Assembly (NCBI GenBank): GCA_027492035.1
Contig: JAOZFT010000009.1
Span: 1-28,330, forward strand
Length of the DNA: 28,330 nucleotides
Origin: Thermoproteota archaeon
Lineage (GTDB): Archaea > Korarchaeota > JAOZGF01 > JAOZFZ01
Direction: 5' to 3'
In this document: piece by piece, positions 5,417-27,173 of the stretch
Layout of the letters: every line of letters starts with the position of its first letter
Position numbering within the stretch: the stretch's first letter is position 1
The notes under the pieces: model-generated
Database searches by the model: none
Told to the model about the DNA's origin: nothing
What the model saw: the letters and a program-made list of their open reading frames with translations, nothing else
Program-made: the position numbers and the translations under genes

Positions 5417-6025
5417 TCAATCCGAAGAAGTCAACTTAGGTTTTACGAATCCGTGGTTAATTAAGGTTATACGTTTCTCAACTTCCACTACTCCTCCTTC
5501 ATGCTTAAAAATTGTTTTAAATGTTGACTTCCATTTTCCGCCAGGGTTCAGAGAAATACTTGCTTCATTTACCCTAACAACCACGGTTCCATCCCCAGAT
5601 AAATCCTTTATCTCCAAATTTGCAGTTTTGTCTTTGAAAGGTAGACTATAAACCCCAAATAGATCACTGGCAGTTCCTCCACCAATTCCACCACTTAAAC
5701 TAGTGCCTGAACCATAAATCAGTTTTAAGGAAGAATTCAATTGAATGAATTCAGAATTAACAAAGCCTTCCAATACATGTGAATCTTCATTTAACCAGTA
5801 CTTTGGAAAATCAATGAACAAGTTAAAGGGTTTCCCTTCTAAAATTTTTCCGTGTTCATTTACCCAGAACTCTAAGAAAATGTATTCACCGGATTCAGCT
5901 CTCCTTCCAACCTCAGAAGGGGAAAGAAAAAACAAGGAAAACAAAAGCAACAAAGAAGTAATTAATGAAACTAGAACGAAAATTTTCCATCTGACCCTTA
6001 AATTCGGATCGATGCACTGTAACAT
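5417..6025 (-). CDS. Membrane-anchored extracytoplasmic protein, unknown function
   Basis: 202 residues, ATG start at 6025. A single hydrophobic helix (FVLVSLITSLLLLFSLFFL, about residues 16-34) follows a basic N-terminus; the rest is beta-rich and predicted outside the cell: YIFLEFWVNEHGKILEGKPF, a Gly-rich loop SGTSLSGGIGGGTASD, then strands with GDGTVVVRVNEASISLNPGG, and VEVEKRITLINHG. No Cys, zinc site or catalytic motif is evident. It resembles generic archaeal pilin-like or surface beta-sandwich proteins in layout only. It ends 60 bases after the start region of the TM2/zinc-ribbon gene's far end, on the same strand (6086-6445), so co-transcription downstream of that gene is possible. 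Confidence 0.65.
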   Translation of the reverse strand: MLQCIDPNLRVRWKIFVLVSLITSLLLLFSLFFLSPSEVGRRAESGEYIFLEFWVNEHGKILEGKPFNLFIDFPKYWLNEDSHVLEGFVNSEFIQLNSSLKLIYGSGTSLSGGIGGGTASDLFGVYSLPFKDKTANLEIKDLSGDGTVVVRVNEASISLNPGGKWKSTFKTIFKHEGGVVEVEKRITLINHGFVKPKLTSSD

Positions 6026-6085: not shown

Positions 6086-6445
6086 TTAAGAGTACTTTTT
6101 TAAAGCAGTTTTTCGGGCATCAAAAGCACTGAAAATCCCGATTATCAACCCCGCTGTCAAAAGGTAACTTGGTGATGTGTAAACAATCATTGCCCATAAT
6201 ATTAAAGCTCCAATCACCCATAACCCGCCTCTTTTCCACTTTCCAAGATAGAAGTGGCCAAGTCCAGCTACCAAGAAACCTAGAACAGTGGCTAACATAA
6301 CACTTTTCTTTTTCAAAGGCATCGTGTCCTGTTGGGAGACTGGAACAGCAACAGATTCTGCAGAAGTTACTACTTGTGCACCGCAACTTGGGCAAAAAGA
6401 TGCACCTGGAGGTATTTCTTTTCCGCATACATTACAGAAAGACAA
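6086..6445 (-). CDS. Zinc-ribbon protein with TM2-like membrane domain
   Basis: 119 residues, TTG start with GGTGTG six bases upstream. Residues 4-22 form a rubredoxin-like zinc ribbon (CNVCGKEIPPGASFCPSCG, two CxxC knuckles). A short linker leads to a TM2-like hairpin: KKKSVMLATVLGFLVAGLGH with FYLGKWKRGG between the two helices, and a third hydrophobic segment LLTAGLIIGIFSAFDA. The G-x-H-FYLGK turn is typical of TM2-domain proteins. Zinc-ribbon/TM2 fusions are widespread in archaea, with unknown function. It is divergent from the 631-residue surface protein gene, and neighbouring genes also carry zinc ribbons of the same type. Confidence 0.8.
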   Translation of the reverse strand: MSFCNVCGKEIPPGASFCPSCGAQVVTSAESVAVPVSQQDTMPLKKKSVMLATVLGFLVAGLGHFYLGKWKRGGLWVIGALILWAMIVYTSPSYLLTAGLIIGIFSAFDARKTALKKYS

Positions 6446-6689
6446 CTTTCACACCGGTAATTTTAACAGAATGAAAATTATTTAAATTTAACCTGGAATT
6501 ATGATGGAAATAGTAAAATTTAAATAAAAATTTTGCATCGATTTGTTCAAAACCAGTCTAGTTTGGTTGAATTACTTCTGATTCTTCCACTCTAGATGGA
6601 TCGCTTCTTTACGCTTAAGCAGAAGATAAAGAAGCTAAATTGAAGAGAAAATAAACCCAAAATCGCAAAAAAATGAGTTGAAACCTTAA

Positions 6690-8585
6690 ATGTATAATAA
6701 GAAACCTCTACTTCTTTTAATTATACCTTTAATTTTAGCTTCAACATTAACTGTGGTTGAAGTAAAATCTGAAGATGACGACCTTTGCAGTAAATATTGT
6801 GAAATACTTCACAACTATTTATTTTGGAAGGATAAATGGGAAAAGTGCAAGGCATCTGGTGGATGTGAAGAAGGCAATGACATATATATGCAGTATATAG
6901 CTGCTTTTCACAAATATACTAACTTTATTTCAAGCCATGATATCTCAGCATGTTCATGTGGAAAGTTAATCAGTGAGTCAACCAATAAACCAACCAATAA
7001 ACCAATCACTGATTCAGATAGTGACGGAGTTCCTGACGAGAGAGATGAGTGTCCAAATACACCTCCTGATGTTACCGTGGATGAAAAAGGATGCCCAGTG
7101 ACGACTTCCCAAGTAACCGATGAAGTATTCATTCAAAGCATTGATCCCCCTATAGGAACAGTGTTTTCTCCTGGGCAACAAGTAACTTTCAAGGCTTCAA
7201 TAAATTATGTATTAACTTCTAAACCTACAGGTGAAGTATATCTTTATGGTCAACCTTCAGAAACTTGGAGTCAAGCAGGATCTCTTACTGTTAGTCAGGG
7301 AAAAGGAAATATTCAGCTGCAATTTACATATACAGTTCCTGAAGATAAAGAAAGGTTCCTTGTTGTAGCTGCTTTGTACCCGGAAGAAGTTACTGATACA
7401 AAAACCTACGATTTTAAGGAGTTTTTCATAGTTCCAGAAAAGAAACTTTCTGTTTCGGTCTCTACAGATAGGGAAGTATACAACGTAAATGATACTGTGT
7501 GGGTTAGTGGTTCTGTAACTTCCACTGACCAAGATGTAACAGGTGCCACGGTTTCAATAGAGGTTACTAGTCCATCTGGTAAATACATTGCTGAAGTTGT
7601 CGAAGTTGATAGTCAAGGCAATTATCAGTGGCCATGTGACCTTAAGCTTGCCTTTAAAGGTGATGCACCTCCAGGGGAATGGAAAGTTAAGGTCAAAGCT
7701 TGGAAAACAGGTTGTAAAGAAGCATATGCAACTAAAACTTTTTCTGTTTCTGAATCTGTAACTAATGGTACATCCGCCTTGACAACTTTGATTATAGGGG
7801 CTGGAGGCCTTTCATTGGTGGGGTTACTTCTTAAGTCTTTATTTTCGAGAAAAAAGAAGATTCTGAAGCCTTCCACTGTTTCTACTACACCTTCTACGTC
7901 ACCTTCAATACTAAAATCTGTTCCTTCATTATTAGATGCTGCTGCATCGTTTCTTAGTTCTGGTGATACCTATCTAGAAGCTGTAGAGAAAGGAGTTAAT
8001 GCTTTAATGCCCTCAGGCCGAGGTGTGTTTATTACTACTGTTACACAACAAAGAGTATTTAGCACCTTAAGTAGAGCTAAGAAATGGGTGAAGAAATTCA
8101 AAAGTTCAAAATGGGGAGGAAGACTTAAGCGTTTAGGTAAATGGGGCACAGGTGTTGATTTATTTTCTAGAACATGGAGCGTGGTAAAAACTGGTATGGA
8201 GGAAGGAGTTGCTGAAGCTGGTGGCAAAGCAAGTGAAAAAGCAATTTCGTTCATTGTAACCACCGCATTTACACCTTTAGCTATTGTTGATATTATAACT
8301 GGTGGTAAAGTCTCCTCACTTGTTGAGAAAGGCGTAAGAAAAGTCAGAAAAACAACTGCAAACTTTATAGGTAAAGAAATTGATGCTCATTTTGAGAAGA
8401 TCCATGAGAAAAACATGAAAGAACAGAGAATGTTCCGTCACGAACTTGAAAGACTAAAAAGAAGAACCGACTTAACAAGCCAGGATAAGAAAAAGATCCT
8501 GAAGAATCTACGTAAAAAATTTAGAATGGAAGAACAGGAAAAAAGTTTCCTGGAGTTTATGCGTGATAAGCTTTTGTTCTTATGA
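6690..8585 (+). CDS. Large membrane-anchored surface protein with TSP3 repeat and cytoplasmic helical tail
   Basis: 631 residues. A signal peptide occupies residues 1-27. A Cys-rich helical region follows (C33, C37, C53, C59, C88, C90), then a thrombospondin-type-3-like calcium motif (DSDSDGVPDERDECP, 108-122, and GCP at 134-136). Two beta-sandwich segments come next, about 145-250 and 252-353; the second (DREVYNVNDTVWVSGSV) resembles macroglobulin MG2/Ig-like domains. A TM helix at about 363-382 ends in a basic SRKKK. The final 245 residues should face the cytoplasm: a Ser/Thr/Pro linker, a hydrophobic patch (FIVTTAFTPLAIVDIITGG, 521-539), and a strongly charged helical C-terminus (562-631). 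Stop to next ATG is 6 bases, so the zinc-ribbon protein is almost certainly co-transcribed. Function unknown; the shape suggests a sensor or adhesion receptor. Confidence 0.75.
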   Translation: MYNKKPLLLLIIPLILASTLTVVEVKSEDDDLCSKYCEILHNYLFWKDKWEKCKASGGCEEGNDIYMQYIAAFHKYTNFISSHDISACSCGKLISESTNKPTNKPITDSDSDGVPDERDECPNTPPDVTVDEKGCPVTTSQVTDEVFIQSIDPPIGTVFSPGQQVTFKASINYVLTSKPTGEVYLYGQPSETWSQAGSLTVSQGKGNIQLQFTYTVPEDKERFLVVAALYPEEVTDTKTYDFKEFFIVPEKKLSVSVSTDREVYNVNDTVWVSGSVTSTDQDVTGATVSIEVTSPSGKYIAEVVEVDSQGNYQWPCDLKLAFKGDAPPGEWKVKVKAWKTGCKEAYATKTFSVSESVTNGTSALTTLIIGAGGLSLVGLLLKSLFSRKKKILKPSTVSTTPSTSPSILKSVPSLLDAAASFLSSGDTYLEAVEKGVNALMPSGRGVFITTVTQQRVFSTLSRAKKWVKKFKSSKWGGRLKRLGKWGTGVDLFSRTWSVVKTGMEEGVAEAGGKASEKAISFIVTTAFTPLAIVDIITGGKVSSLVEKGVRKVRKTTANFIGKEIDAHFEKIHEKNMKEQRMFRHELERLKRRTDLTSQDKKKILKNLRKKFRMEEQEKSFLEFMRDKLLFL

Positions 8586-8591
8586 AGGTGA

Positions 8592-9686
8592 ATGTTTTTG
8601 GAATATGTAATCTTAGATAAACATGAGACTTTAAAGTTAATCAGGGCAATGGGATTGAAGCTTGGTGAAGGCTCTCCTTTGAACCAGTTTACATTTAAAG
8701 AGCCTTTAGATTTTTCAAGTTTGAAGGTAAAACATGTTTCTGAGGATGCAGCTAAACTGTTAGGGATCATTGCAGACCCTGAACAAGTTCTCCTGCTTCT
8801 TATTAAAGCTGCAGATTTTGAATATAACCTTTTATACTACGGGAAGGAGGGTGTTTTACTTCAGTATGGGATTGAAAACGAAGAGCCCGCCATTTATGAC
8901 GTATTAGATGGCTTGTCTCTTGTAGATTTCTTACACTCTTTATTTAAGCATAGCGCAGGGAACAGAGCCTCTTACATGGTTTTATCTATTCCAGAGTATC
9001 TTGTACTCTGCGCTGCCATTAAACTTCAAGAGTACTCAGACTTCATAGGAGGAATTAGCCAAGAGGATGACTTTCTGCATTTCACTACGACAGACTTAAA
9101 AGAAGAGATACAAATCAGTTTAAATAAAACACTAAAAGGGCCAATTAAATGGACACAAAAAGATGAAGCCCAGATTAATGCCACCATATCTAATCTTGTA
9201 AAAAAAGGGTTCCTCCAGTACATGAAAGGGGGACTTTTAAAGATCACTGAACATTGGAAGAAACTAGTTTCAGTTACAAGTACAGACAGTATGTCGCTTA
9301 CTATGTGGATCAGAAACTTTAAACGTAAAGAAGATAAATCAGTTAGGGTAATGGGCAACGTTGACGGAACAGTTTCCTTTGAAATATATTCAAATGGCGT
9401 TATTCTACGTGAAATACCTTCATCTCAACTGAAAAATTACCTTCTCTTAACTATATTTGGAGCAGCTGAATCTGTCCCTGCATCGGTGCAAGTGTGTCCA
9501 AGATGCGGATTTACGAATGACTCAACTTCTAGATTTTGCATCAAATGTGGGCAAAGCTTAACAAAAACTTTAAAACCCGCTCAGTCACAGGATGCAAAGC
9601 CTCAAGCGCTTTACTGTATAAAATGCGGAGCTAAAATCCTTCCAGGAGCTAAGTTCTGTACAAAATGCGGAGCTAAGATCACTTAA
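8592..9686 (+). CDS. Winged-helix-like cytoplasmic protein with two C-terminal zinc ribbons
   Basis: 364 residues, ATG start with GAAGGTGA just upstream, inside the end of the previous gene. No signal or TM. The N-terminal 150 residues are a mixed alpha/beta domain (GKEGVLLQYG, YMVLSIPEYLVLCAAIKLQ) not recognised. Residues about 165-225 look like a winged helix (ATISNLVKKGFLQYMKGGLL, with a wing and helix after it). Residues 250-290 form beta strands (MGNVDGTVSFEIYSNGVILR). Two zinc ribbons end the protein: CPRCGFTNDSTSRFCIKCG (302-320) and CIKCGAKILPGAKFCTKCG (342-360). Position and tight spacing imply work together with the 631-residue surface protein, perhaps as its cytoplasmic partner; that role is inference. 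Confidence 0.7.
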   Translation: MFLEYVILDKHETLKLIRAMGLKLGEGSPLNQFTFKEPLDFSSLKVKHVSEDAAKLLGIIADPEQVLLLLIKAADFEYNLLYYGKEGVLLQYGIENEEPAIYDVLDGLSLVDFLHSLFKHSAGNRASYMVLSIPEYLVLCAAIKLQEYSDFIGGISQEDDFLHFTTTDLKEEIQISLNKTLKGPIKWTQKDEAQINATISNLVKKGFLQYMKGGLLKITEHWKKLVSVTSTDSMSLTMWIRNFKRKEDKSVRVMGNVDGTVSFEIYSNGVILREIPSSQLKNYLLLTIFGAAESVPASVQVCPRCGFTNDSTSRFCIKCGQSLTKTLKPAQSQDAKPQALYCIKCGAKILPGAKFCTKCGAKIT

Positions 9687-9699
9687 CCCTTAAACGTGC

Positions 9700-9823
9700 C
9701 TATAAAAACGGAGGCCGCTTACCCATGGATACTGTGTGCAATGTAGCAGGAGAACTCCTCCAGGTTTCCGTCTTGTGTATATGCCGTGGTTCAGAAGTAA
9801 CCGCGTATTTTAAGGTAGCGTGA
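9700..9823 (+). other. GC-richer structured stretch; possible small RNA or 32-residue leaderless ORF
   Basis: A TATA-like CTATAAAAA at 9700-9708 is followed by an unusually GC-rich patch in an AT-rich background. An ORF from ATG 9725 to TGA 9823 encodes 32 residues with three Cys (MDTVCNVAGE, VLCICRG); the TATA spacing would place transcription start near the ATG. The same DNA folds well: GGAGG (9710-9714) can pair with CCTCC (9757-9761), and ACGGA (9708-9712) with TCCGT (9767-9771). I cannot tell RNA from peptide by eye. Confidence 0.3.
9785..9805 (+). other. Stable hairpin, 7-bp stem
   Basis: CGTGGTT (9785-9791) pairs with AACCGCG (9799-9805), six Watson-Crick pairs and one G-U, around a 7-base loop CAGAAGT. 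It lies upstream of the PH-like zinc-ribbon gene. No T-run follows directly, so it does not look like a simple terminator. Confidence 0.4.
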
Positions 9824-9877
9824 GAATTCAAGTTAGATGGTTAGATAGAATGTAAATGCTTTAAGAGGTGTGTTTGT

Positions 9878-10306
9878 ATGTCGGGTCTTATGCCAGGAGA
9901 AACAGTTCTGAAGGATTCTGGAAGGTTACCGGTAGCATATGCAAAAAACTCTTTCAGAACAATAAACGGGAGGCTTATATTAACTAATACACGTCTGATC
10001 TTCATTGGTGGCAGGTTTCAAAGCATAATTGAGTCTTTCCTACAGTCTCATAGGGAAAAACTGGAAATTCCATTAGCTTCAATTACAAGGGTTGAGAAAG
10101 GGTTTATGGCCCACATAAAGGTGTATGCTGACAAAGAATATTCGTTTAAGGGAATGAGGGACCCAAACGGGTGGATAGCAGCTATTGAACAGGCGAAAGC
10201 AACGCAACAACTCCCTCACCCTGCACCTAACTTCTGTCCTTACTGTGGCAATCCTATAAGAGTCGGTGACGTTTTCTGCCCAAACTGTGGGAGAAAAATC
10301 CTCTAA
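9878..10306 (+). CDS. PH/GRAM-like domain protein with C-terminal zinc ribbon
   Basis: 142 residues, ATG start with GAGGTG eight bases upstream. Residues 1-105 look like a bacterial PH/GRAM-type domain: the opening LMPGETVLKDSG, the strand pair INGRLILTNTRLIFIGG (29-45), then IPLASITRVEKGF (64-76) and a final helix DPNGWIAAIEQA (95-106). The strand-turn LTNTRLIF is the hallmark of this fold. A zinc ribbon CPYCGNPIRVGDVFCPNCG (120-138) ends the protein. Such domains bind lipids or proteins; the target here is unknown. It is the third plus-strand gene of the zinc-ribbon group and shares ribbon style with the genes at 6086 and 8592. Confidence 0.75.
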   Translation: MSGLMPGETVLKDSGRLPVAYAKNSFRTINGRLILTNTRLIFIGGRFQSIIESFLQSHREKLEIPLASITRVEKGFMAHIKVYADKEYSFKGMRDPNGWIAAIEQAKATQQLPHPAPNFCPYCGNPIRVGDVFCPNCGRKIL

Positions 10307-10474: not shown

Positions 10475-11056
10475 TTAGAGTTTAGAAACAGGATTCCTCT
10501 CAATTACCTTAGCTTTTTCAATTATTTCATCTATCTTCGCTATAAGAGATTTTACTTCACATTTAGGCAACCCTGTAACTCCATCAGAGAATGGAAGGTA
10601 CACAATTAAATGTTTATCTATGTATGTCCTCCTGTTTAACTTGAAAGGAACGTTAACATGGGCTTTATGCTTAACTTTTATGCTTGTGAAATTTTTTATT
10701 CCTGCTAGAACACCAATCACCGAGTTAAGAATTTCTTCACTGAGAATGAAACCAGATAAACCTTTTAAAGCATCGTAGTCCTTGTTAACGCTTATTTCCA
10801 CCTCATAACCTTTATAAAAACCTATTACACGGCCGTATCCAAGGCCTCCACTCTGAAATTTACATTTGATCCTTTTAGCAACCTCTCTAAGGTAGGCGTC
10901 ACCTTTCCTTTTCACCCTCAAATACCAAGCCATCACCAGCCCCACAAACACAGTGAATGCAAGTCCAAGTGACAAATTCAGAAGCCAAAGCAATAAAATA
11001 GTAACAGCCACTAAAGAGAAACCAACATAACTTGCAATGATTTCTGAATACTTCAT
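10475..11056 (-). CDS. Membrane protein with two N-terminal TM helices, unknown function
   Basis: 193 residues, ATG start at 11056 with AGGAGATTT eight bases upstream. Residues 7-45 form two close hydrophobic helices (ASYVGFSLVAVTILLLWLLN and LGLAFTVFVGLVMAWYL) with a short turn, then a basic RVKRKG. The remaining 145 residues are predicted cytoplasmic and mixed alpha/beta: YLREVAKRIKCKF, a Gly-rich YGRVIGFYKGYEVEISV, GFILSEEILNSVIGVLAGI, and a helical tail VKSLIAKIDEIIEKAKVIE. The pattern resembles DUF3137-like or general membrane-anchored proteins but I do not recognise a family. A TATA-like box lies 52-59 bases upstream. It stands alone between intergenic stretches. Confidence 0.7.
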   Translation of the reverse strand: MKYSEIIASYVGFSLVAVTILLLWLLNLSLGLAFTVFVGLVMAWYLRVKRKGDAYLREVAKRIKCKFQSGGLGYGRVIGFYKGYEVEISVNKDYDALKGLSGFILSEEILNSVIGVLAGIKNFTSIKVKHKAHVNVPFKLNRRTYIDKHLIVYLPFSDGVTGLPKCEVKSLIAKIDEIIEKAKVIERNPVSKL

Positions 11057-11105
11057 TTTTTAAATCTCCTAGTAAATTGCTAAATTAATGTGCTTGTAAA
11101 ATTTG

Positions 11106-11117
11106 GAGATATAAATG
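11106..11117 (-). promoter_or_regulatory. Putative TATA box for the 193-residue membrane protein
   Basis: On the minus strand this reads CATTTATATCTC. The centre is about 55 bases before the ATG at 11056, which would put transcription start near 11083 and leave a short leader carrying the ribosome site. Called by eye from the archaeal box A pattern. Confidence 0.35.
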
Positions 11118-11517
11118 TATTGTTTTAACCTTTGCTTTAAGCCTCCAAGTGATTTTTGTTTCCTCCATTTTGAAGAAGTTCTTTTTAGTGTTTATTGGTT
11201 TAGGGTTGAATATCAAAGCTACAACCCTCCTCTAACATTATTAAATCTATTAGATTCCGGGTGTAACGTTAACGGCTAAAAACATAACTTCTTTTACTAT
11301 TAACCCTCAACATTGCAAAGATGTCAGTGAAAACCTTTGCTAAGCAGCTGAAAGAATTAATTAGGACATAAATATGAAAGCTGAGTTTATAAAGGGCTAC
11401 ATAGTGTAGTAGGCTGTGACGAGTAAAAGGGGATCTTGGGGTGTCGGTTAAAAGCTTAGTAAAGATGCCATGTGATCACAATCAAGCCGCCTTTTATAGG
11501 AAAAAACCGATGAACAT
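11118..11517. other. Intergenic desert
   Basis: About 400 bases with no ORF of credible length and no recognisable RNA. Short frames on both strands (for example a minus-strand 28-codon frame starting near 11175) have no ribosome site or family signature. It borders a zone of decayed genes and is probably decayed sequence itself. Confidence 0.45.
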
Positions 11518-11520
11518 AAA

Positions 11521-11529
11521 ATATATAAA
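11521..11529 (+). promoter_or_regulatory. Putative TATA box
   Basis: ATATATAAA, preceded by A-rich sequence, is the best archaeal box A match nearby. It lies 39-47 bases before an ATG at 11568 that also has GGAGTGGTG in front, and about 130 bases before the decayed aspartic protease gene. It may be the surviving promoter of that broken unit. Confidence 0.4.
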
Positions 11530-11567
11530 GTTTCTCTCTTCTAATTTAAGTAGTGGAGTGGTGTGTA

Positions 11568-11651
11568 ATGCGGAAATTTGGTAGATTCATCTCTATGAAG
11601 CTTTGGCGTAACGCTTCCTTAAAAAGAGATTTGGGAAATTCCGTAAAATAA
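11568..11651 (+). CDS. Possible 27-residue basic peptide ORF
   Basis: ATG at 11568 follows GGAGTGGTG at a suitable distance and a TATA-like box, and the frame runs 27 codons (MRKFGRFISMKLWRN, then a basic tail). It precedes the decayed aspartic-protease copy in the same way that a 42-residue ORF precedes the intact copy at 19.2 kb, but the two small peptides do not resemble each other. It could equally be the remnant of a longer gene. Low confidence. Confidence 0.2.
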   Translation: MRKFGRFISMKLWRNASLKRDLGNSVK

Positions 11652-11655
11652 ACCA

Positions 11656-12079
11656 GTGAAAAAAAAGGTATAAGGATACTTACCGAAGTGAAACATGAAA
11701 GGGAAGCGAAATCAACCCCAGCTTTAATTAATAGCGCTACGAAGCCTATAAACCTGAAATCCACGTTCCTTTAGCATTAGCTAAAAAGTTAAAGTTTAAG
11801 CTTGAGGAACTGAAAAGGTGAAAAATACAAAGTTGTAAGCACCGAGGTAACAGCTTATACCTTAGGAAAAATCTATGTAAGGGTTGTTACAGAAGACAAA
11901 GTTACAGAGTGGGTGGAAGCCGAGGCTGTGACGACTCCAGGTGAATACGAAGTAATCGTTAGTGATGCATTAACAGAAAAACTTCAAATAGAGATCATAA
12001 ACCTAAAATTGGTCTTTGGAAGTTTCATGGGGAAGAAAAAATCAGGAAAAGCTTAGAGCCGCGATACTGGATTGAATGA
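11656..12079 (+). pseudogene. Decayed clan AA aspartic-protease-like gene (AF_0612 type)
   Basis: Joining frames recovers a protein clearly related to the intact gene at 19228-19644. Frame one gives KHEREAKSTPALINS (compare RKEVKSIALVNS); one base is then missing and the next frame gives YEAYKPEIHVPLALAKKL (compare FEVNKPKLLIPIKLAEKL). A TGA follows; the next frame reads KYKVVSTEVTAY, IYVRVVTEDKVTEWVEAEAV, YEVIVSDALTEKLQIEII (compare VRVVTSDKEGKETSATAL and KEVLISDLLTDKLGIILL). A last shift gives GLWKFHGEEKIRKSLEPRYW (compare GIWRFIDDPP). At least three indels plus an internal stop make it non-functional. The catalytic position again reads Asn-Ser, not Asp-Thr/Ser. Confidence 0.8.
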
Positions 12080-12220
12080 AAAACTTTGCAAACCCTATAC
12101 CCAGGAAACTTTGTTGCTTAAGCTGGAGAAGATGAATGGGGTTGAGTTTAAATACTCTTCCACAGTTTTTGATTCCGTCAACAGCTGAGGGGCTTAAAGA
12201 GCCAGACAAATCCTTCGAAG

Positions 12221-12559
12221 GTGTTGATAAACTTCAAGTCCCTTTATGGTAAAGGTGCATCTTCATTTCAAAGATATGGACAAGGAAGAGACAGAGCCTA
12301 TATTGTTAAAATCATTAAACCATTTTACCGAAACCCGGTTACAGAAGTTATTGAAGATGAAAGGATTTACAGAATAAGTGAAAAAGCATCTAGAAAAACA
12401 TTAGAAATTTTCGGTGTAAGTATTGCATTAGTAGGGGTACCTTTGATAGCATTGAATAAGTATGTAGAAGCTGGGTGTGCTTTAACTTTCTCAGCATGTG
12501 CCTTAACACTGCTATACTTGACTTTCTACAGTTACTACAGCAGGAAAAGTTTGGAGTAA
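12221..12559 (+). CDS. DUF2178-like membrane protein, N-terminus possibly degraded
   Basis: 112 residues from a GTG at 12221. The central stretch [19 protein letters not shown] (about 47-65) is the signature of DUF2178-type archaeal membrane proteins, followed by two hydrophobic helices ([17 protein letters not shown], and [20 protein letters not shown]). Family members usually carry additional TM helices before the DER motif; here the first 45 residues are polar and unfamiliar ([20 protein letters not shown]) and the start has only a weak ribosome site, so the 5' end may be rearranged. The gene is followed after 14 bases by a small HTH regulator, a pairing seen often in archaea. Confidence 0.6.
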
Positions 12560-12573
12560 GCAAGGGTGTTGAA

Positions 12574-12777
12574 ATGAAAACAAGAATAAAAGAGTTCAGA
12601 GCAAAATATAACCTAACACAAGAAGAACTTGCAAAGAAGGTCGGAGTAAGAAGGGAAACCATTGTTTTTCTGGAGAAGGGAAAGTACAATCCATCCCTTA
12701 AACTAGCATATAAAGTAGCTAAAGAGTTAAAAACAACAATTGAGGAGTTGTTTATATTAGTTGTTTATATTCAATGA
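12574..12777 (+). CDS. Small XRE/HTH_3 transcriptional regulator
   Basis: 67 residues, ATG start at 12574 with AAGGGTG upstream; longer reading from 12475 would overlap the preceding gene and is not supported. Nearly the whole protein is a Cro/C1-type helix-turn-helix: [20 protein letters not shown], then [20 protein letters not shown] and [20 protein letters not shown]. The motif [18 protein letters not shown] contains the recognition helix, and the [10 protein letters not shown] turn is typical of the short YozG-like regulators. Such proteins commonly sit next to a DUF2178-type membrane protein, as here, and may control that operon. The last residues (ILVVYIQ) are unusual and could reflect a worn 3' end. 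Confidence 0.85.
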
Positions 12778-12827
12778 AGACAATTAATTAAGTGGCTGGT
12801 AGGGTATGGATTAAAAGCCTTATGAAG

Positions 12828-12850
12828 CTGCGGCAACTTCGTTGCTGCAG
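12828..12850. other. Near-perfect 10-bp hairpin
   Basis: CTGCGGCAAC (12828-12837) pairs with GTTGCTGCAG (12841-12850) across a 3-base loop, with one G-U pair. It stands out by GC content in an AT-rich gap between the HTH gene and a broken VapC. No T-run follows. It may be a mobile-element or RNA remnant. Confidence 0.4.
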
Positions 12851-12905
12851 AGTTTCCGGGTCAGAGCTGAAATAAATTAGAGGGAATAGAACAATTTGAG
12901 GAATT

Positions 12906-12938
12906 AGAGGGAGTTGATAATGGAATTCAACTCCTTTT
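12906..12938 (+). terminator. Hairpin with short T-run, terminator-like
   Basis: GGAGTTGA (12910-12917) pairs perfectly with TCAACTCC (12927-12934) around a 9-base loop, and weaker pairs extend the stem into the following TTTT. It is 130-160 bases after the HTH gene and could end that transcript. Archaeal termination usually depends on T-runs rather than hairpins, so the role is uncertain. Confidence 0.35.
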
Positions 12939-13070
12939 CAAATGTTTCAACACAATTTCTCATAGTTTAGTTGATTGATTGTTGACTTTTCTTAAAAATA
13001 GATTTATTATTCCTTTTAGTTCTTTTAATAGTAATTGAGGTGGAAATGGTTAAGGTTGAAAAGAAGATTC

Positions 13071-13486
13071 TCATTCTGTTTCTTTTAGCCTCTTAAAGTG
13101 TTCATCTCCAGTTAATACTTTGACTTCATATCTTCTGGCCGCTGCAAGGGTTAGGGTGTCAAAAAGACTTGGCTCACTTTTCCCCTCTTCAACTGCTTTA
13201 TCTCTTAATTCAGGGTAGGCTTCACCTGATTTTAAAGCTAAATCTACATCTATGTTGACGGTGAGGGAAACTATTTCTATTTGTTTAAGTCCCTCCATAA
13301 CCAATTCTTCTCTTAACTCCCTCTCTAACGTATTTCCTTGCAACCTCTACAAGAAGGGTGCCAGGTGTGTAAATATTTCTTGCTTTTTTCGGTAATCTCC
13401 TTAACCTTTTCGCCTTTACTGCTGCCAATGAATAATTCTACCCAGGAGTAAGTGTCAACAACTACTTCCACACAAACACCTTTCAT
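13071..13486 (-). pseudogene. PIN-domain (VapC) toxin split by two frameshifts
   Basis: The ATG at 13486 begins MKGVCVEVVVDTYSWVELF, with the first catalytic Asp in VVDTYSW. That frame runs into a stop, while the neighbouring frame carries the expected continuation IYTPGTLLVEVARKYVREG. The third frame then covers most of the protein from 13343 to 13071, including SLFDTLTLAAARRYEVKVLT and GDEHFKRLKETE, with the later catalytic acids intact (FDTLTLA and TGDEHF). All conserved acidic residues survive, so the inactivation is recent, or the indels are sequence errors. VapC enzymes cleave RNA and are held in check by a small antitoxin; small ORFs lie immediately upstream on the same strand. Confidence 0.8.
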
Positions 13487-13492
13487 CAGGTT

Positions 13493-13561
13493 TTATTCTC
13501 TATCCTTTTCGCGATCTTCCTCTTTGAAGGAAGTTACCAACTCTTTGTCTATCCCAAACAT
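13493..13561 (-). CDS. Possible 22-residue ORF, antitoxin tail
   Basis: ATG at 13561 opens MFGIDKELVTSFKEEDREKD and two more residues, ending 6 bases before the VapC start. The acidic, Lys/Glu-rich peptide resembles the C-terminal tail of VapB-type antitoxins that wrap the toxin. A TGA stands just upstream in the same frame, so it may be the severed end of a longer antitoxin. Low confidence as an independent gene. Confidence 0.25.
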   Translation of the reverse strand: MFGIDKELVTSFKEEDREKDRE

Positions 13562-13571
13562 TTTTCAAGAA

Positions 13572-13709
13572 TTAACATTCTCCTTTCCGAATAACTTTTC
13601 TCACTGCTTCCTCTAATAAGTCATCAGGGTATCCAAACTCCACAAACTGAAAAACAATATCAAATAACAAAACAAAGAAAATTAAGGCCTCTTTTCCATG
13701 TTTTTTCAC
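13572..13709 (-). CDS. Small 45-residue ORF upstream of VapC remnant
   Basis: GTG start at 13709 with a strong AGGAGG five bases upstream. Residues: VKKHGKEALIFFVLLFDIVF, then QFVEFGYPDDLLEEAVRKVI, then RKGEC. It has a hydrophobic helix and a charged amphipathic helix, and lies 10 bases before the next small ORF and 85 bases before the VapC start. By position it may be, or derive from, the antitoxin gene. Upstream codons in frame stay open for about 20 residues, so the start is chosen from the ribosome site. Family not recognised. Confidence 0.4.
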   Translation of the reverse strand: MKKHGKEALIFFVLLFDIVFQFVEFGYPDDLLEEAVRKVIRKGEC

Positions 13710-13823
13710 GTAAGCCTCCTGCTTTTCCTTTAGGTTACTTTTGTATTGCCTCTGCTTTATGAAGAGGCTTTATTTTTATTAGCGATTCTTTTAGCTAGTT
13801 TTAGATATAAGGAGGGAGTGTAA

Positions 13824-14094
13824 ATGCGTTCTCTCAAGGAGAAAAGTAAGTTTTCAATCTTCAAGCCTCAAAACCCGTGGACATCATGGTGATAACTGAG
13901 GGACTTAGCAGGGTAGAGGACAAAAAATTCATTGTTTCTCTCTGTATTGTTCAGAAGCAAATTTGAACTAAATAAATAGGGAGGGGAAGTAGAGGCTGGA
14001 AAGTGCAACGCGGAGATGGAGATAGTTAAAACCTACTTTGTTAGATGCAGTGATGTAAGGGATTTCACAGTTTGTACCCTATTTTTCGCAGGAA
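13824..14094 (+). pseudogene. Frameshifted unknown gene overlapping the adenosine-kinase 3' end
   Basis: ATG at 13824 follows AAGGAGGGA. The first frame gives MRSLKEKSKFSIFKPQNP and stops; the next gives KPVDIMVITEGLSRVEDKKF; a third gives FRSKFELNK, a stop, then GGEVEAGKCNAEMEIVKTYF and [18 protein letters not shown], running into the convergent gene. The segments are protein-like and probably one former gene of about 90-100 residues, cut at its 3' end. The VDIMVITE strand is reminiscent of a small nucleotidyltransferase but the family is not established. Confidence 0.4.
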
Positions 14095-17875: not shown

Positions 17876-18643
17876 ATGAACAAAAAATTTTTAGTATTAA
17901 CGTTTTCACTAATATTTTTAACATTCTCAGCCACAGCAGTATTGAAAACACTAAATCAACTATGCAAAGTAAACTTTGGAAAGGGGTTAAACCCCCTGTT
18001 TGCAGAAAACCTGAACAAAACAGTTAACATATTGATTGTTAGGGGAACAGGTGTAGTTGAAACGTTTCCTGGCCAAGCAAAGATAAGTTTGCAAGTGGAA
18101 ACAGAAGCCTCAACAGCTAAAGAAGCTGTAACAACAAATGCGGAAAAAATGACGAATGCAATAAACAAACTTAAGTTTATAGGAATACCGAAAGAAAAGA
18201 TAGAAACAACTTACTTCAGTATTTATCCAGTATACTCCGAAAGTCCACCATACACAGTTATAGGGTACAAAGTAAACAACCGGGTTATGGTTACAACAAA
18301 CAAAACATATGAGATAGGAAAAATAATTGATGCAGCTGTAGAAGCAGGAGCAAACAAAGTAGATGGGGTATACTTCACTTTATCAGACCAAAAAATGAAA
18401 GAAACAGAAAAAATAGCTATTAAGAAAGCTGTGGAAAATGCAGAAACAAAAGCTGAAGCAATAGCAGAATCTGCACAAATAAAATTGACAAAAATAATCA
18501 ACATAGCAGAAACAGGAATTTACAAACCCGCACCGGTAAACTTATACGAAATAGCTAAAGCTGAAACAGGAGCATCTACACCTATTTCACCAGGTCAAAT
18601 AAAAGTAACAGCAACCATACAAATAACTTACATGTTCACCTGA
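17876..18643 (+). CDS. SIMPL-domain (DUF541) exported protein
   Basis: 255 residues from ATG 17876; GGAGG at 17863-17867 is its ribosome site, so the ATG at 17861 is rejected. A signal peptide or anchor helix covers residues 3-22 (KFLVLTFSLIFLTFSATAV). The mature part is a SIMPL domain: IVRGTGVVETFPGQAKISLQ, VETEASTAKEAVTTNAEKM, GIPKEKIETTYFSIYPVY, GYKVNNRVMVTT, GANKVDGVYFTLSD, and a helix rich in Ala/Glu (AIKKAVENAETKAEAIAESA) before a final beta strand. DUF541 proteins are secreted or periplasmic and their biochemistry is mostly unclear; in bacteria some bind partner proteins or assemble into rings. Stands alone; a T-rich tract follows. Confidence 0.85.
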   Translation: MNKKFLVLTFSLIFLTFSATAVLKTLNQLCKVNFGKGLNPLFAENLNKTVNILIVRGTGVVETFPGQAKISLQVETEASTAKEAVTTNAEKMTNAINKLKFIGIPKEKIETTYFSIYPVYSESPPYTVIGYKVNNRVMVTTNKTYEIGKIIDAAVEAGANKVDGVYFTLSDQKMKETEKIAIKKAVENAETKAEAIAESAQIKLTKIINIAETGIYKPAPVNLYEIAKAETGASTPISPGQIKVTATIQITYMFT

Positions 18644-18668
18644 ACCTCTACCACAATCCATAGGTCCC

Positions 18669-18680
18669 TTTTTTCTTTTT
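18669..18680 (+). terminator. T-rich tract after the SIMPL gene
   Basis: TTTTTTCTTTTT lies 25 bases after the stop codon, following a CCC. It fits an archaeal T-tract terminator. No hairpin is needed and none is strong. Confidence 0.4.
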
Positions 18681-18739
18681 AGGCAACGTTTTTAAGTTCC
18701 CCACATTAAAGTTATTGTACCATTTAATTTAAGGAGAAA

Positions 18740-19134
18740 TTAAGGAAACTTTTAAACAATTTGTCATAGAAAAGTAGAAAATGGATAGCGAAGTATTCCA
18801 AGCTTGTTAAAGAATTTGTTGATAACCTAAAAATTGAATTAAGTGGAAAATTCCATGTTGACGAAACTACAATAAAGTGCGGTGGAGAATATAACTGGTT
18901 TTGGGAAATAATAGACACTGATTTTTTTGGTCACTACTCGTTTATCTGGAGAAAGAAAAATAAAAGAAGTTAATTTAGTTATTTAAACAAGCAAAAGAAA
19001 GATCTGCTGAAAGATCAAAAAGAATAGTTGTAGATAGATTAAGGGTTTATGAAAAAGGTTTTAAGAAAATTTTCTACAGCAGGTATAGAGAGCATAGGAA
19101 TATAAATAAACATAAGGGTAAAATTGATAGATAA
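18740..19134 (+). pseudogene. Fragment of a DDE transposase (IS6/IS240-like)
   Basis: From 18782 the frame reads WIAKYSKLVKEFVDNLKIEL, then SGKFHVDETTIKCGGEYNWF and WEIIDTDFFGHYSF, matching the start of the DDE domain with the first catalytic Asp in HVDET and the xWxxxDxD core. One frameshift later the expected continuation RLSGERKIKEVNLVI appears, and another frame gives ERSAERSKRIVVDRLRVYEK and GFKKIFYSRYREHRN, with the second Asp region. The domain then stops at 19134 before the third acidic residue. Both ends of the element are missing and no inverted repeats were found. Remains of an old insertion beside a decayed area. Confidence 0.75.
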
Positions 19135-19148
19135 AAGGTGTTAAACTA

Positions 19149-19277
19149 ATGGAAAAAACTGAAAGAATAGGTAAACTTAAGGAAGGAAGAGTTATAGGGA
19201 TAATAATACCAGTTGAGGAGGAAAAAATTGGCGATCAGAGTAAAACTAAGGATAAAGGGGCCAAGAAAGGAAGTTAA
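19149..19277 (+). CDS. Small 42-residue ORF overlapping the aspartic-protease gene
   Basis: ATG at 19149 with AAGGTG eight bases upstream, encoding MEKTERIGKLKEGRVIGIII, PVEEEKIGDQSK and a Lys-rich tail. Its last 50 bases overlap the start of the next gene in another frame, so translation of the two may be coupled. A TATA-like TATAAATAA (19101-19109) lies upstream. The first half reads like a small beta-strand protein (RVIGIIIP); no family recognised. The overlap is longer than usual, so the real end may have drifted. Confidence 0.4.
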   Translation: MEKTERIGKLKEGRVIGIIIPVEEEKIGDQSKTKDKGAKKGS

Positions 19278-19644
19278 ATCCATTGCACTCGTAAATTCGG
19301 GTTTTGAAGTGAACAAACCAAAACTGTTAATCCCCATAAAACTAGCAGAAAAACTAGATCTCTACCCTCCAAAAAAAGAATCAAAACTGAGAGAACTGGA
19401 AGTTGCCGGAGGAGAAATAATACAACTAATAGAAATAGAAAACATTGTTAAAGTTAGGGTGGTAACGAGTGATAAGGAAGGAAAAGAAACATCAGCTACT
19501 GCTCTAATATCACCCAAGGAGAAAGAAGTATTAATAAGCGATTTATTAACAGATAAACTTGGAATAATACTGTTAAAACCAGGATCCGGCATATGGAGAT
19601 TCATTGACGACCCTCCAAACATGGAAAGAAAAAGTGAAAAATGA
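19228..19644 (+). CDS. Clan AA aspartic-protease-like protein (AF_0612 type) with Asn at the catalytic position
   Basis: 138 residues from TTG at 19228, chosen because GAGGAGG lies six bases upstream; a TTG at 19213 would swallow that site. The sequence follows the retropepsin-like half-domain: IRVKLRIKGPRKEVKSIALV, then NSGFE where the family has DTGFE, KPKLLIPIKLAEKLDLYP, the flap-side strand LEVAGGEIIQL, VRVVTSDKEGKETSATALIS, EVLISDLLTDKLGIILLKPG, and SGIWRF. The catalytic Asp of D-T/S-G is Asn, which should abolish ordinary proteolysis. A decayed copy at 11.7-12.1 kb has Asn-Ser too. It may act as a non-catalytic binding protein. It sits in a two-gene unit with the small ORF. Confidence 0.75.
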   Translation: MAIRVKLRIKGPRKEVKSIALVNSGFEVNKPKLLIPIKLAEKLDLYPPKKESKLRELEVAGGEIIQLIEIENIVKVRVVTSDKEGKETSATALISPKEKEVLISDLLTDKLGIILLKPGSGIWRFIDDPPNMERKSEK

Positions 19645-19845
19645 AAACAAAAATGGAGAACGTTTATCCAAAACATAAACTCCCACTACATTCCAAAAAG
19701 TTAACAATCAACAAAATACCAACAAATTTCCAAATAAACAGTTAAAAAGGCTCTAGGACTTTACCTTACCCTTCAAATCACCAAGTTTACTGCACTTATC
19801 ATTTAAATCCATAAAAGAAATGTACGTTGCTGGGTTAAAATTTAG

Positions 19846-20034
19846 CGGGTCACTTTCACATGGGATAGATGTGATGCAAAAGAACTGTTAACAAAGGAAC
19901 TAGATGAAAGCTTAAAAATCTTCTAAAGGAAACTAAAAACTTTAGATCCAAACAACATAATGAACCCGAGTGTCCTCTCCCAAACCCTTTTTTACCAGGA
20001 ACCGTTAAAACCTGTTTTTAAACATTTTCAATAA
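19846..20034 (+). pseudogene. C-terminal remnant of a GlcD-like FAD-linked oxidase
   Basis: One frame reads TWDRCDAKELLTKELDESLK, IF, a TAA stop, then RKLKTLDPNNIMNPSVLSQT and LFYQEPLKP, ending at 20034. The LDPNxIMNPxxL motif is the C-terminal signature of FAD-binding glycolate/lactate oxidases (GlcD family), whose length is about 450 residues. Only the last 50-60 residues remain and they carry an internal stop, so this is a fossil. No FAD-binding half was found upstream. Confidence 0.55.
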
Positions 20035-20094
20035 GGAGTCATGCTTTCACATGGAAAACTCGCGGTATTCGCATTTAAACTGGAATTTTTAATG

Positions 20095-20330
20095 TTAAAC
20101 TTTTATAAATTTCTCCATGAAAACTGCACCGAAACCAGATAAATTCTCACCAATTAATTTAACCCTGTCTCTAACTTCTTTAATGTTCTTCGCCATTTTA
20201 GGTGTAATGTGTAATATTCATGTTCCTTCTAATCTCTCCAATACCAGTTTTAACCCTCATCTGGGATTTTGTGGCCACCGTGCACATGACATTTTCTCGA
20301 TACTCATGGAAGCCATAAATAAGGCTGGAA
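20095..20330 (-). pseudogene. Possible decayed coding sequence of unknown family
   Basis: One minus-strand frame is protein-like except for two internal stops: PALFMASMSIEKMSCARWPQ, a stop, GLKLVLERLEGT, a stop, then ILHITPKMAKNIKEVRDRVK and LIGENLSGFGAVFMEKFIKV, ending at 20095. The charged amphipathic pattern favours this strand over the opposite open frame. Family not recognised; it lies just downstream of the JAMM gene in the same direction. Confidence 0.3.
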
Positions 20331-20363
20331 CCCTTGTCTCCAACAGAATTAGAGGAGAATGTG

Positions 20364-20771
20364 TTAAGACTTTACAATTATTGGTTCCTCCTCAAAACTT
20401 TCCCCGTCCCAGACATAAGCTTTAACTCCATCTTTATCAAGAGAAACAATTACATAAATGTAGCCTTTATAACAAGCTTTTTCCTTATCCATAGGGGAGG
20501 GAGTTGCTTCACGGCAGATGTGGCTGTGGTAGAAACCTAGAACCTTTAATCCTCCTTCTTCTGATTCTTTAAAGGCTCTTAAAAGGGTTTCAGGGTCTAT
20601 TTCGTATTTAATAGGGGATCTTAAGATGTTTGTTGCTTCGTAAATCCTTAAAGCCATCCTTTTATCCCCTGAACATTTTCCAACAATTACGCCGCAGGCT
20701 TCTAAGGGCTTCTTAACCTTGCAATCATTAATCATTGATTTAAAGACTTCCTTCTCAAATATCAAAACCAA
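20364..20771 (-). CDS. JAB1/MPN (JAMM) metalloprotease domain protein
   Basis: 135 residues, TTG start at 20771 with AGGGGT upstream. The JAMM motif is complete: Glu24 in PLEACGVIVG, His82 and His84 in GFYHSH, and Ser92 and Asp95 in TPSPMD (HxHx7SxxD). Archaeal proteins of this size and layout include desampylases, which remove ubiquitin-like SAMP modifiers, and the Mov34/MPN enzymes that process sulfur-carrier proteins. Either role is possible; no SAMP, E1 or ThiS gene is in the window. It follows the carbonic anhydrase gene by 112 bases on the same strand, which does not prove an operon. Length is standard for the isolated domain. Confidence 0.85.
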   Translation of the reverse strand: MVLIFEKEVFKSMINDCKVKKPLEACGVIVGKCSGDKRMALRIYEATNILRSPIKYEIDPETLLRAFKESEEGGLKVLGFYHSHICREATPSPMDKEKACYKGYIYVIVSLDKDGVKAYVWDGESFEEEPIIVKS

Positions 20772-20883
20772 TTTCTTTACCCCTAGGAAAGGATTGTTTA
20801 ACGTACAGATATCGCTAAGTTGAGACAGTTATTGAGTCCTCGATGTGCATGTTTGGATGCAAGGTTAACTAAGTTGGCAGCTT

Positions 20884-21414
20884 TTAAAGAATTTTAGAGG
20901 AGGCTGCTTTTTTGTATATTTTGTTTGCTACGGAAGAGTAATAGTTTGCGCTTCCCTTTATTAGTTTTTTTAGTTTTTCGTCCACTGTTTTAATTATTTT
21001 TGCTGGTACACCTGCTACAACTACTCCTCCGGGTATTTTTGTTTTTGCTTTAACTACTGAACCTGCAGCTACTATGCTCCAGCTTCCTATTTCTACTTCT
21101 TCTAAAATTGTGGAGTTCATCCCTATCAAAACATTGTTTCCAGTTTTGTAACCGTGGAATATGACTCCATGTCCTAAGGTGACAGAGTCACCGATGACCA
21201 TTTCTTGGAGTGGGTCGACATGGAGTACACAATTGTCTTGTATGTTTACTTTTTTGCCGATTTTTATTTTGTTGTTATCCCCCCTTAAGACAGCATTAAA
21301 CCATACACTGCTTTCTTCACCTATTTCAACGTCTCCAATTATTACTGCTGTTTCAGCGATGAAGCAAGAGGGATGAATTCGAGGCTTTTTCCCGTTTATT
21401 GTTAAGATAACCAT
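20884..21414 (-). CDS. Gamma-class carbonic anhydrase-like hexapeptide protein
   Basis: 176 residues from ATG 21414, chosen because AGGAGTGA lies close upstream; a TTG 21 bases earlier would overlap that site. It is a left-handed beta-helix of hexapeptide repeats (IGDVEIGEESSVWFNAVLRG, IKIGKKVNIQDNCVLHV), with the three metal-binding His positions of gamma carbonic anhydrases (CVLHVD, VTLGHG and VIFHGY) and the conserved RGD and VAAGSVV segments. The C-terminal helix ends in YYSSVANKIYKKA. Such proteins hydrate CO2 or are inactive YrdA-like relatives; the key Glu residues cannot be judged here. The gene follows UPF0251 by 17 bases and is probably co-transcribed with it. Confidence 0.9.
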   Translation of the reverse strand: MVILTINGKKPRIHPSCFIAETAVIIGDVEIGEESSVWFNAVLRGDNNKIKIGKKVNIQDNCVLHVDPLQEMVIGDSVTLGHGVIFHGYKTGNNVLIGMNSTILEEVEIGSWSIVAAGSVVKAKTKIPGGVVVAGVPAKIIKTVDEKLKKLIKGSANYYSSVANKIYKKAASSKIL

Positions 21415-24542: not shown

Positions 24543-26438
24543 TTGGGCAGTGAAAACAGGGGTTCAAAGAGCAAAATAACTCACTTAAGAAGAGAAATAA
24601 GTTTGTTAGGCTCTTTTTCGATGGGTTTCGCGGATGTAGGCGCTGACGTGTTCGTTGCAATAGGACTAGTGGCTGCTTACGCTGCAGGTTTCTCACCCTT
24701 AGCTTTCCTGATTGCTTCAATATGTTACGTTACCACAGGCCTTGTTTATTCTGAATTAACTGTTATTTATCCCTATGCCGGCGGGGCTCAGATTTATGGG
24801 ATGAGGGCTAAAGGGGATGCTTTAGGTTTCTTGGCTGGGTGGGCGATAATGTTAGATTACGTTCTTGACATAGGTCTCTTCTCTATTGCTTCAGCTGGTT
24901 ATTTAAGTTTTCTTTTCCCTATTTTGCAGAGAAACATTATTTTTTTCCCCCATACATGTCTCGAAATTGCTTTTTCAGGCATAGGGTTAACTGCCTTCCT
25001 AATAACTTTAACTCTGATAGGGATTAATGTTTTAGGTATAAAAGAGTCTTCTTTTCTGAATCAAGTGTTAGTTGTTTTAACTTTAATTGTTGAAGCACTT
25101 GTTTTGATTTCAGGTTTCCTTTTTGTTTTTAAAACAAGTAGTTTCCTGAAAAACTTCGTTGTTTTCGGTTCACCTGTCAAGCACAGAGAAGTTTTTTATG
25201 TTGGGTTTGGAAACGTGAAAAATGAAAACATAATTTACAGCGTCACTTTAGCCATGAGCAGCTTTATAGGGATAGAATCTATTGCCCAAGCTGCTGAAGA
25301 AACAAAGAAACCTGCCAAATTTCTGCCTGAAGCTTTTAAGTTGTCAATAATAGCTGTTATTTTATTCACTTTAAGTTTTTCAGTTCTAGGTTTAGGGACT
25401 CTCGGCTGGAAAGGTTTAAGTGAGGCTGTTTACAACCCAGTAGCCAAAATTTCTTCAATGGTACCTGGTGTAGGGACATATCTCTCCAAATTCGTTGCTT
25501 TGGTTGCTTTCGCCATCTGTGTAGTTTCAACCAATACAGGAGTTATAGGTGTTTCCAGAGTTATTTATTCAATGAGTAGATATAATCTTTTCCCTCTCTG
25601 GTTTAGTAAACTCCATGAAGTTAGGGCTACACCTGTCAGAAGCATAGTGATTTTTGGTTTGTTAGGGGGGTTACTTGCTTTACTTGGGAGAATAGGGTTT
25701 GTAGCTAGCTTATACAATTACGGAGCTGTTTTATCTTATGTTTTAGTGAATTTCTCCCACATTGTTTTGAGAGGAGTTGATAAAGATGCTTACAGGCCAT
25801 GGAAAACTCCTTTAAACTTTAAATTCAGGGGGAAAGAAGTGTCTCTTGTTTCGGCCCTTGGTTTAGTTTCAACTTCAGCAATGTTCAGTTTAATTCTTTT
25901 GTTCCATCCAACTGGGAGAGTGCTTGGAACTGTTTGGATGGCAACAGGATTCTTAGTTTACGTTGTTTTACGTAAAAGAATTAAATTACCTGTGTTTGGA
26001 AGAGTTTCAGCTGAAAAAATAAAACCTGCCTTGCCTGTGATTAAGACAGGGATATACGTCCCTTTTTACATGCCAAGTGAAAAAGTTGTTGTAACTGTGG
26101 AGCAAAACTTGAGGAAACTTAACGAAATATATTTGTTAACTGTGCTTACCCCAGAGGAATTAAAGGTTAGAAGGTACAGCGAAATAGAGAAGTTAAGTGA
26201 GGAGACAGGGAAGAGTTTAAGAGAAGCCTGTAAAAAGTTGAGACGTAGGGGGTATAGATGTGAAGCTCAAGTGGTGATAGGGGAAAGGAACAGAGAAGTA
26301 ATTAATTTCTCTGAAAAGACAGGATTAGATGAAATGGTTTTTGTAGGGATTAGGAAACGTAGAGGAATAATTAAACCCGAAAAATACGATGAAATAAGAA
26401 GGAAGGTTAGGGTTCGTTTCTTCAAGGAAATAATTTAG
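24543..26438 (+). CDS. APC-family amino acid permease with C-terminal Usp-like domain
   Basis: 631 residues, TTG start after GGGAGAGGGG. Residues 1-470 form about twelve membrane helices of the amino acid-polyamine-organocation type: SFSMGFADVGADVFVAIGLV, YPYAGGAQIYGMRAKGDALG, FIGIESIAQAAEETKKPAKF, and NTGVIGVSRVIYSMSRYNLF are hallmark segments. Residues about 500-631 are soluble and resemble a universal-stress-protein fold (IKTGIYVPFYMPSEKVVVTV, LREACKKLRRRGYRCEAQVV, GLDEMVFVGIRKRRG) without a clear glycine ATP loop. Archaeal Usp-tailed permeases of this kind are thought to be gated by nucleotides or partners. The next genes encode a RAM domain and a Usp protein, suggesting a regulated uptake unit. 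Confidence 0.9.
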   Translation: MGSENRGSKSKITHLRREISLLGSFSMGFADVGADVFVAIGLVAAYAAGFSPLAFLIASICYVTTGLVYSELTVIYPYAGGAQIYGMRAKGDALGFLAGWAIMLDYVLDIGLFSIASAGYLSFLFPILQRNIIFFPHTCLEIAFSGIGLTAFLITLTLIGINVLGIKESSFLNQVLVVLTLIVEALVLISGFLFVFKTSSFLKNFVVFGSPVKHREVFYVGFGNVKNENIIYSVTLAMSSFIGIESIAQAAEETKKPAKFLPEAFKLSIIAVILFTLSFSVLGLGTLGWKGLSEAVYNPVAKISSMVPGVGTYLSKFVALVAFAICVVSTNTGVIGVSRVIYSMSRYNLFPLWFSKLHEVRATPVRSIVIFGLLGGLLALLGRIGFVASLYNYGAVLSYVLVNFSHIVLRGVDKDAYRPWKTPLNFKFRGKEVSLVSALGLVSTSAMFSLILLFHPTGRVLGTVWMATGFLVYVVLRKRIKLPVFGRVSAEKIKPALPVIKTGIYVPFYMPSEKVVVTVEQNLRKLNEIYLLTVLTPEELKVRRYSEIEKLSEETGKSLREACKKLRRRGYRCEAQVVIGERNREVINFSEKTGLDEMVFVGIRKRRGIIKPEKYDEIRRKVRVRFFKEII

Positions 26439-26488
26439 AAAGAACTATAGAAAAAATTTTGGAAATGTTTTGAAAACGGAGGTGTAAA

Positions 26489-27159: not shown

Positions 27160-27173
27160 GGGGGTTAAGGAAA

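Follow-up and report, generated by a model that had tools for sequence, protein, structure and literature searches.

Three described protein classes resemble parts of the archaeal locus reported here. (i) EspG proteins are chaperones that target substrates, and they bind the hydrophobic tip of PPE proteins, keeping these soluble (PMC5311947; PMC11217815). The partners of the EspG/EsaE family (PF14011), whose context is type VII secretion, are PE/PPE or LXG substrates. (ii) A number of prokaryotic surface proteins contain MG2 and TSP3 domains. (iii) Archaeal surface proteins of the type ectodomain-transmembrane region (TM)-zinc ribbon combine a signal peptide, exchangeable extracellular domains, and one TM.

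The locus is found in a 28,330-nucleotide stretch of DNA, referred to here as the window, whose source organism, probably a member of the Korarchaeota, is placed outside the family that includes most of the sampled species. In these uncultured archaea, the reading and decoration of the cell surface are little understood. The proteins of 631, 364, and 142 amino acids are referred to as P1, P2, and P3, respectively; G000 is the window's own genome, G001 a sister genus of the same family, and G007, G010, G014, G019, and G027 are more distant relatives. Since P1 and P2 are co-inherited across distant relatives, they very probably work as one previously undescribed unit, as judged from sequence. 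Like EspG/EsaE, P2 is an acidic, predicted soluble protein that is encoded beside its presumed binding partner. P2 differs in that it is archaeal and usually carries zinc ribbons, and in that its neighbor is a predicted Sec-exported membrane protein with a likely cytosolic tail.

Architecture of the locus and its counterpart in a sister genus

The features of the locus, in window coordinates, are as follows.

5417-6025, minus strand: 202-aa membrane-anchored protein, conserved locus flank (80 to 83% identity in G001; 37%, E 5e-28, to the same-side gene in G027)
6086-6445, minus strand: zinc ribbon and TM2/DUF6677-like membrane protein, 119 aa, TTG start (Pfam; 70% identical to the G001 copy)
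6690-8585, plus strand: P1, 631-aa surface protein (homologues in G007, G010, G014, G019, and G027)
7008-7064, plus strand: TSP3-like motif of P1 (Pfam)
7458-7748, plus strand: MG2 domain of P1 (Pfam)
about 7776-7838, plus strand: TM of P1 (hydropathy)
7839-8582, plus strand: basic tail of P1, with a hydrophobic stretch at 8241-8297
7749-9527, plus strand: segment swapped out in G001, comprising the TM, the tail, and the P2 N-domain (blastn, edges by eye)
8592-9686, plus strand: P2, 364-aa predicted soluble partner (Pfam; profile-profile match to relatives)
8592-9461, plus strand: EspG-like N-domain of P2 (profile-profile, through relatives)
9486-9560, plus strand: ribbon 1 of P2 (Pfam)
9612-9680, plus strand: ribbon 2 of P2 (Pfam)
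about 9729-9810, plus strand: decayed, frame-shifted zinc-ribbon remnant, common to the window and G001 (nucleotide alignment, six-frame reading)
9878-10306, plus strand: P3, GRAM/PH-like domain and zinc ribbon, 142 aa (Pfam; 51% identity in G027, 87% in G001)
10475-11056, minus strand: 193-aa membrane protein, conserved flank (85% identity in G001; 38%, E 4e-44, in G027 at the same position)

A first-pass annotation had proposed that the 119-aa protein, P1, P2, and P3 form a functionally linked zinc-ribbon cluster, and the open reading frames of all four were located where it had placed them. Its further observations that P2 starts 6 bases past the P1 stop codon and that all ribbons have the form CxxC...FCxxCG also proved correct; the remnant at about 9729-9810 is additional to the ribbons that it named. 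The same annotation had ascribed to P1 a signal peptide, a TSP3-like motif, MG2/Ig-like domains, and one TM. The signal peptide was recovered by hydropathy, and MG2 (PF01835; residues 257 to 353) scored 34.3 bits against a cut-off of 32.8; an Ig-like region is also present. The single TSP_3 (PF02412) motif scored 15.3 bits, below the cut-off of 25. P1 thus resembles MG2/TSP3-containing surface proteins in its MG2 domain and its single TSP3-like calcium motif, but no other macroglobulin domains were found in it. The N-terminal part is Cys rich, hydropathy places the TM at residues 363 to 381 (about 363 to 383 in the feature list), and the basic tail that follows comprises about 247 residues. 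Since residues 518 to 536, within this tail, are nearly as hydrophobic as a TM (1.98), the predicted topology of one TM with a cytosolic tail is likely but not certain.

The ribbon of P3 was confirmed, and its remaining part is GRAM-like (PF02893) with a score of 20.6 bits, below the cut-off of 23.6 (E 4e-4, profile positions 23 to 104 of 112). This part occurs in 4 of 101 genomes (G000, G001, G019, and G027), each time beside the locus. The TM2 match of the 119-aa protein is weak (17.4 versus 27.9 bits), and the related DUF6677 model is just at its cut-off. This gene is present as annotated, but its proposed linkage was not borne out: it is common to the sister genus only, where the copy carries one extra ribbon, and has no counterpart beside the G027 pair. 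PADLOC defence models gave no match for the four window proteins. The locus genes, including P1 and P2, are under purifying selection (dN/dS of 0.19 to 0.33 in relatives), and P1 and P2 are therefore real and used.

The sister genus carries the same locus, split over two contigs. Its copies of the 202-aa, TM2/ribbon, GRAM/ribbon, and 193-aa genes are 70 to 87% identical to those of the window, and residues 1 to 236 of P1 are 70 to 76% identical. The second contig starts at P1 residue 316 and continues beyond the end of MG2, after which an LCAT-like lipase (E 3.5e-21) is followed by an Ig-like part and a TM; two ribbons complete the chain, whose last 30 or so residues are almost identical to the P2 C terminus. 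In a blastn comparison, the 82% identity stops at 7748, which is the exact end of MG2, and restarts at 9528, within ribbon 1, so that 1.8 kb encoding the P1 TM, the tail, and the P2 N-domain have been replaced in G001. Profile searches accordingly found neither the tail nor the P2 N-domain in this genome, and the P1-P2 module is thus dispensable. Ectodomain, lipase, and ribbons apparently form one gene in G001, as inferred from orientation and synteny, with an unassembled gap of about 80 residues lying inside. Like other archaeal surface proteins of the ectodomain-TM-zinc ribbon type, this chain has a signal peptide, exchangeable extracellular domains, and one TM. Its ribbons are the same by descent as those of the window and lie on the cytoplasmic side; in the window, in contrast, they are located on the separate partner P2, with a basic tail taking their place on the receptor. 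Since the G001 ribbons are joined directly to a membrane-anchored chain, they suggest that the ribbons are normally located at the inner face beneath the ectodomain. Such an abrupt swap of a lipase-TM segment in the middle of a locus between sister genera illustrates domain exchange at the cell surface. A reading of the swapped segment as a polymorphic toxin was demoted, because the pair is conserved in other genomes. A decayed ORF with a TM and a broken zinc ribbon, the relic of an earlier 3' end, is located between the lipase and GRAM genes of G001 (L032:1370-1714, minus strand).

Distribution and conservation of the P1-P2 pair

First single-sequence searches had left the P1 tail and the P2 N-domain as orphans, with weak matches (primase, presenilin-like) that were noise. 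This view was dropped when real homologues were found through ribbon matches: those in other genomes of the phylum are the C termini of P2-like proteins, each encoded directly 3' of a P1-like gene. Profiles of P2 and of the P1 tail, whose seed alignments did not include G007 and G010, match the identical 6 of 131 archaeal genomes (G000, G007, G010, G014, G019, and G027). Weak matches of the tail profile in three further genomes (E 0.005 to 0.008) were taken as chance. In 6/6 genomes the P1 gene lies immediately before the P2 gene, with gaps of +6, +4, and +4 and overlaps of 4, 8, and 8 bases, and homologues of either were always linked in the genomes having either profile. The functional link between P1 and P2 claimed by the first-pass annotation is therefore well supported by co-occurrence and adjacency, with the proviso that the number of independent lineages behind the six pairs is only about four. 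The flanking genes of G027 are clear orthologues as well (202-aa protein, 37%, E 5e-28; GRAM/ribbon protein, 51%, E 1e-48; 193-aa protein, 38%, E 4e-44). The outer neighbors of the pair vary, with PEP carboxykinase in G007/G019 and other genes in G010/G014 and G027, and the pair thus travels by itself.

Among 394 genomes there were no further clear P2-like proteins except for a solo paralogue in the window's own genome (L079:8022-9044, minus strand, contig 8 of G000), which is without ribbons and adjoins a 1033-aa DEAD-type helicase. Searches of viral contigs with P1, P2, and the tail returned no match, and those of plasmids with the relatives' P2 and tail no credible match. Sequence and profile searches of the PDB yielded nothing beyond ribbon matches or noise. 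A scan of genome contigs gave ribbon matches only.

The P1-like relatives have a signal peptide, a Cys-rich N terminus, a TM, and a long basic tail, and what is conserved among them is the Cys-rich N terminus, the TM, and, marginally, the tail. Tails are 35 to 62% conserved across distinct relatives and are under purifying selection; the most conserved region (YDG...GEQ...TKNP..G..D) includes a hydrophobic stretch. Conservation does not extend to the TSP3/Ig/MG2 ectodomain, and the MG2 and TSP3 domains are absent from the relatives of P1. Zinc ribbons do not provide a common thread either, since the P2 of G007 is without any and that of G010 has its ribbon behind a stop codon. The TSP3/MG2 receptor head, the zinc-ribbon theme, and the TM2 gene are thus lineage-specific decoration. 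In G010 (L078:10040-10200), one in-frame stop codon separates the ribbon from the remainder of P2; this may reflect decay, readthrough, or a sequence error.

The window proteins are, by sequence, very diverged from these relatives; an HMM of the relatives without the window row misses them (E 0.42 for P2, E 2.4 for the tail). In profile-profile comparisons with the relatives, the window P2 N-domain scored 28.7 (at most 22.7 in 100 column shuffles, 18.0 reversed), and P1 residues 1 to 130 scored 31.7 (at most 19.3 in 60 shuffles, 15.1 reversed). The tail score of 23.3 is marginal, as it was reached by 2 of 60 shuffles, although the match falls on a conserved tail motif. The rest of the homology case for the window proteins is carried by synteny.

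Resemblance of P2 to EspG proteins

The C-terminal part of P2 contains two copies of Zn_Ribbon_1 (Pfam, E 4.7e-15). Its N-domain had been annotated as winged-helix-like, which was not confirmed; matches of its relatives indicate that the region is EspG-like. This hypothesis was drawn from the pattern seen in the relatives, ahead of the tests with EspG proteins. The Pfam family EspG matches 4/5 P2 relatives in the same region (profile positions 38 to 135; E 1.2e-5 to 0.01); the best match, of 25.5 bits, is below the cut-off of 27, and the window P2 is not detected. The top two matches of the EspG profile among 131 genomes are P2 proteins, and the third (G027:C80) is an unrelated metabolic protein. 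We also compared the P2 family (five relatives) by hhalign with a set of seven real EspG proteins from plasmids of mostly environmental mycobacteria. The score was 37.8, over 38 columns only; 100 column shuffles did not exceed 19.9, the reversed profile gave 14.1, and unrelated families of the locus gave 12 to 14. The window P2 itself gave no EspG match by profile comparison. An AlphaFold single-sequence model of P2 had a pLDDT of 41.7, and another single-sequence model reached 46.2. Taken together, the matches of its relatives indicate that P2 is better described as EspG-like than as winged-helix.

No WXG100 proteins above the cut-off were found in 7 genomes, and the FtsK/SpoIIIE (EccC/EssC) matches in the same genomes are short stretches of P-loop similarity, covering about 30 to 55 profile positions with at most 27 bits; the P2 genomes thus differ from the type VII context of EspG in that no WXG100 proteins and no clear EccC machinery were found. 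For these reasons, P2 is EspG-like but not part of type VII secretion as known. A search of the available literature for EspG in archaea, or for GRAM combined with zinc ribbons in archaea, found nothing relevant.

Proposed mechanism and alternative readings

The charges of the two proteins are complementary. Each of the six pairs combines a strongly basic P1 tail (+25 to +36, pI about 10) with an acidic P2 N-domain (-6 to -29, pI 4.4 to 5.6), whereas the unpartnered P2 paralogue is basic (+18). With a probability of roughly 50%, we propose that the two-gene module encodes a receptor at the cell surface and an EspG-type partner dedicated to binding the tail of this receptor; the physical binding, the topology, the target sensed or anchored, and the output are what we infer. 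P1 would be Sec exported, with a disulfide-rich N terminus and exchangeable ectodomains joined through one TM to a basic tail in the cytoplasm. P2, a cytosolic protein of EspG-like fold dedicated to P1, would be made beside it from coupled or overlapping genes. An acidic face of P2 may bind the basic tail, and P2 would probably shield the hydrophobic stretch of the tail, by analogy to EspG on PPE proteins. In most lineages the zinc ribbon or ribbons of P2 may provide a docking site on the cytoplasmic side of the membrane, and P3, where present, might add a membrane-lipid-binding component via its GRAM-like domain.

The likeness to EspG also permits a reading as an export module, in which P2 would be a true secretion chaperone that delivers P1, or the P1 tail, to a type VII-like exporter, with the ectodomain acting as a surface effector. 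We consider this unlikely: EspG chaperones do target substrates (PMC5311947; PMC11217815), the P2 relatives resemble EspG, and the G001 ectodomain includes an LCAT-like lipase, but the search for WXG100 proteins was negative, the FtsK/SpoIIIE matches are confined to short P-loop stretches, and P1 itself carries a signal peptide and a TM. Equally improbable is that P2 is a winged-helix transcription factor, held by the tail and freed upon an ectodomain signal. Weak matches to the SelB winged-helix (2 members, best E 0.018) and to MksE, as well as the frequency of ribbons among archaeal regulators, are in line with this function; the acidity of the N-domain, however, is unlike most DNA-binding domains, and the EspG match is stronger.

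We give less credit still to the idea that the genes form a toxin/immunity-like pair, with a membrane-active variable tail, P2 as its neutraliser, and exchange of cassettes between relatives. The abrupt swap of 7749-9527 in G001 together with the ribbon fossil, the hydrophobic stretch in the tail, and weak Imm74 matches in two members would fit, but the tail, located past the TM of an exported protein, is expected in the cytosol, it is conserved in the distinct relatives and subject to purifying selection, and the PADLOC search was negative. That unrelated genes were simply left together by slow rearrangement is very improbable. Archaeal gene order can persist and the independent lineages are few, but the pair persists while its outer neighbors differ among G007/G019, G010/G014, and G027, and the patchy joint presence in 6/131 genomes contradicts this explanation by pointing to joint gain and loss.

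A co-inherited receptor with its dedicated partner is a concrete, testable module. More tentatively, and with odds that we place below even, P2 may represent an archaeal EspG-type chaperone fold outside type VII secretion, with a role as the cytosolic partner dedicated to a transmembrane receptor at the cell surface. If the likeness to EspG is real, a fold of mycobacterial and staphylococcal type VII secretion would occur in archaea in which no such system was found, which bears on the question of the origin of EspG; bacterial type VII secretion would then have recruited EspG from a class of tail-binding partners that is both older and broader.

Several other features of the window were recorded. 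Positions 11056-14065 and 18643-20884 are long stretches with few convincing ORFs and may contain pseudogenes or be non-coding. The AT skew is strong around 17 to 20 kb, and the GC skew is strong (0.28 to 0.35) over 25001-28000, the region of an amino acid permease and a universal stress protein. At 64-909 on the plus strand, the window encodes an ATPase_2-like protein with a match to the MCM C-terminal winged helix (E 6.7e-10).
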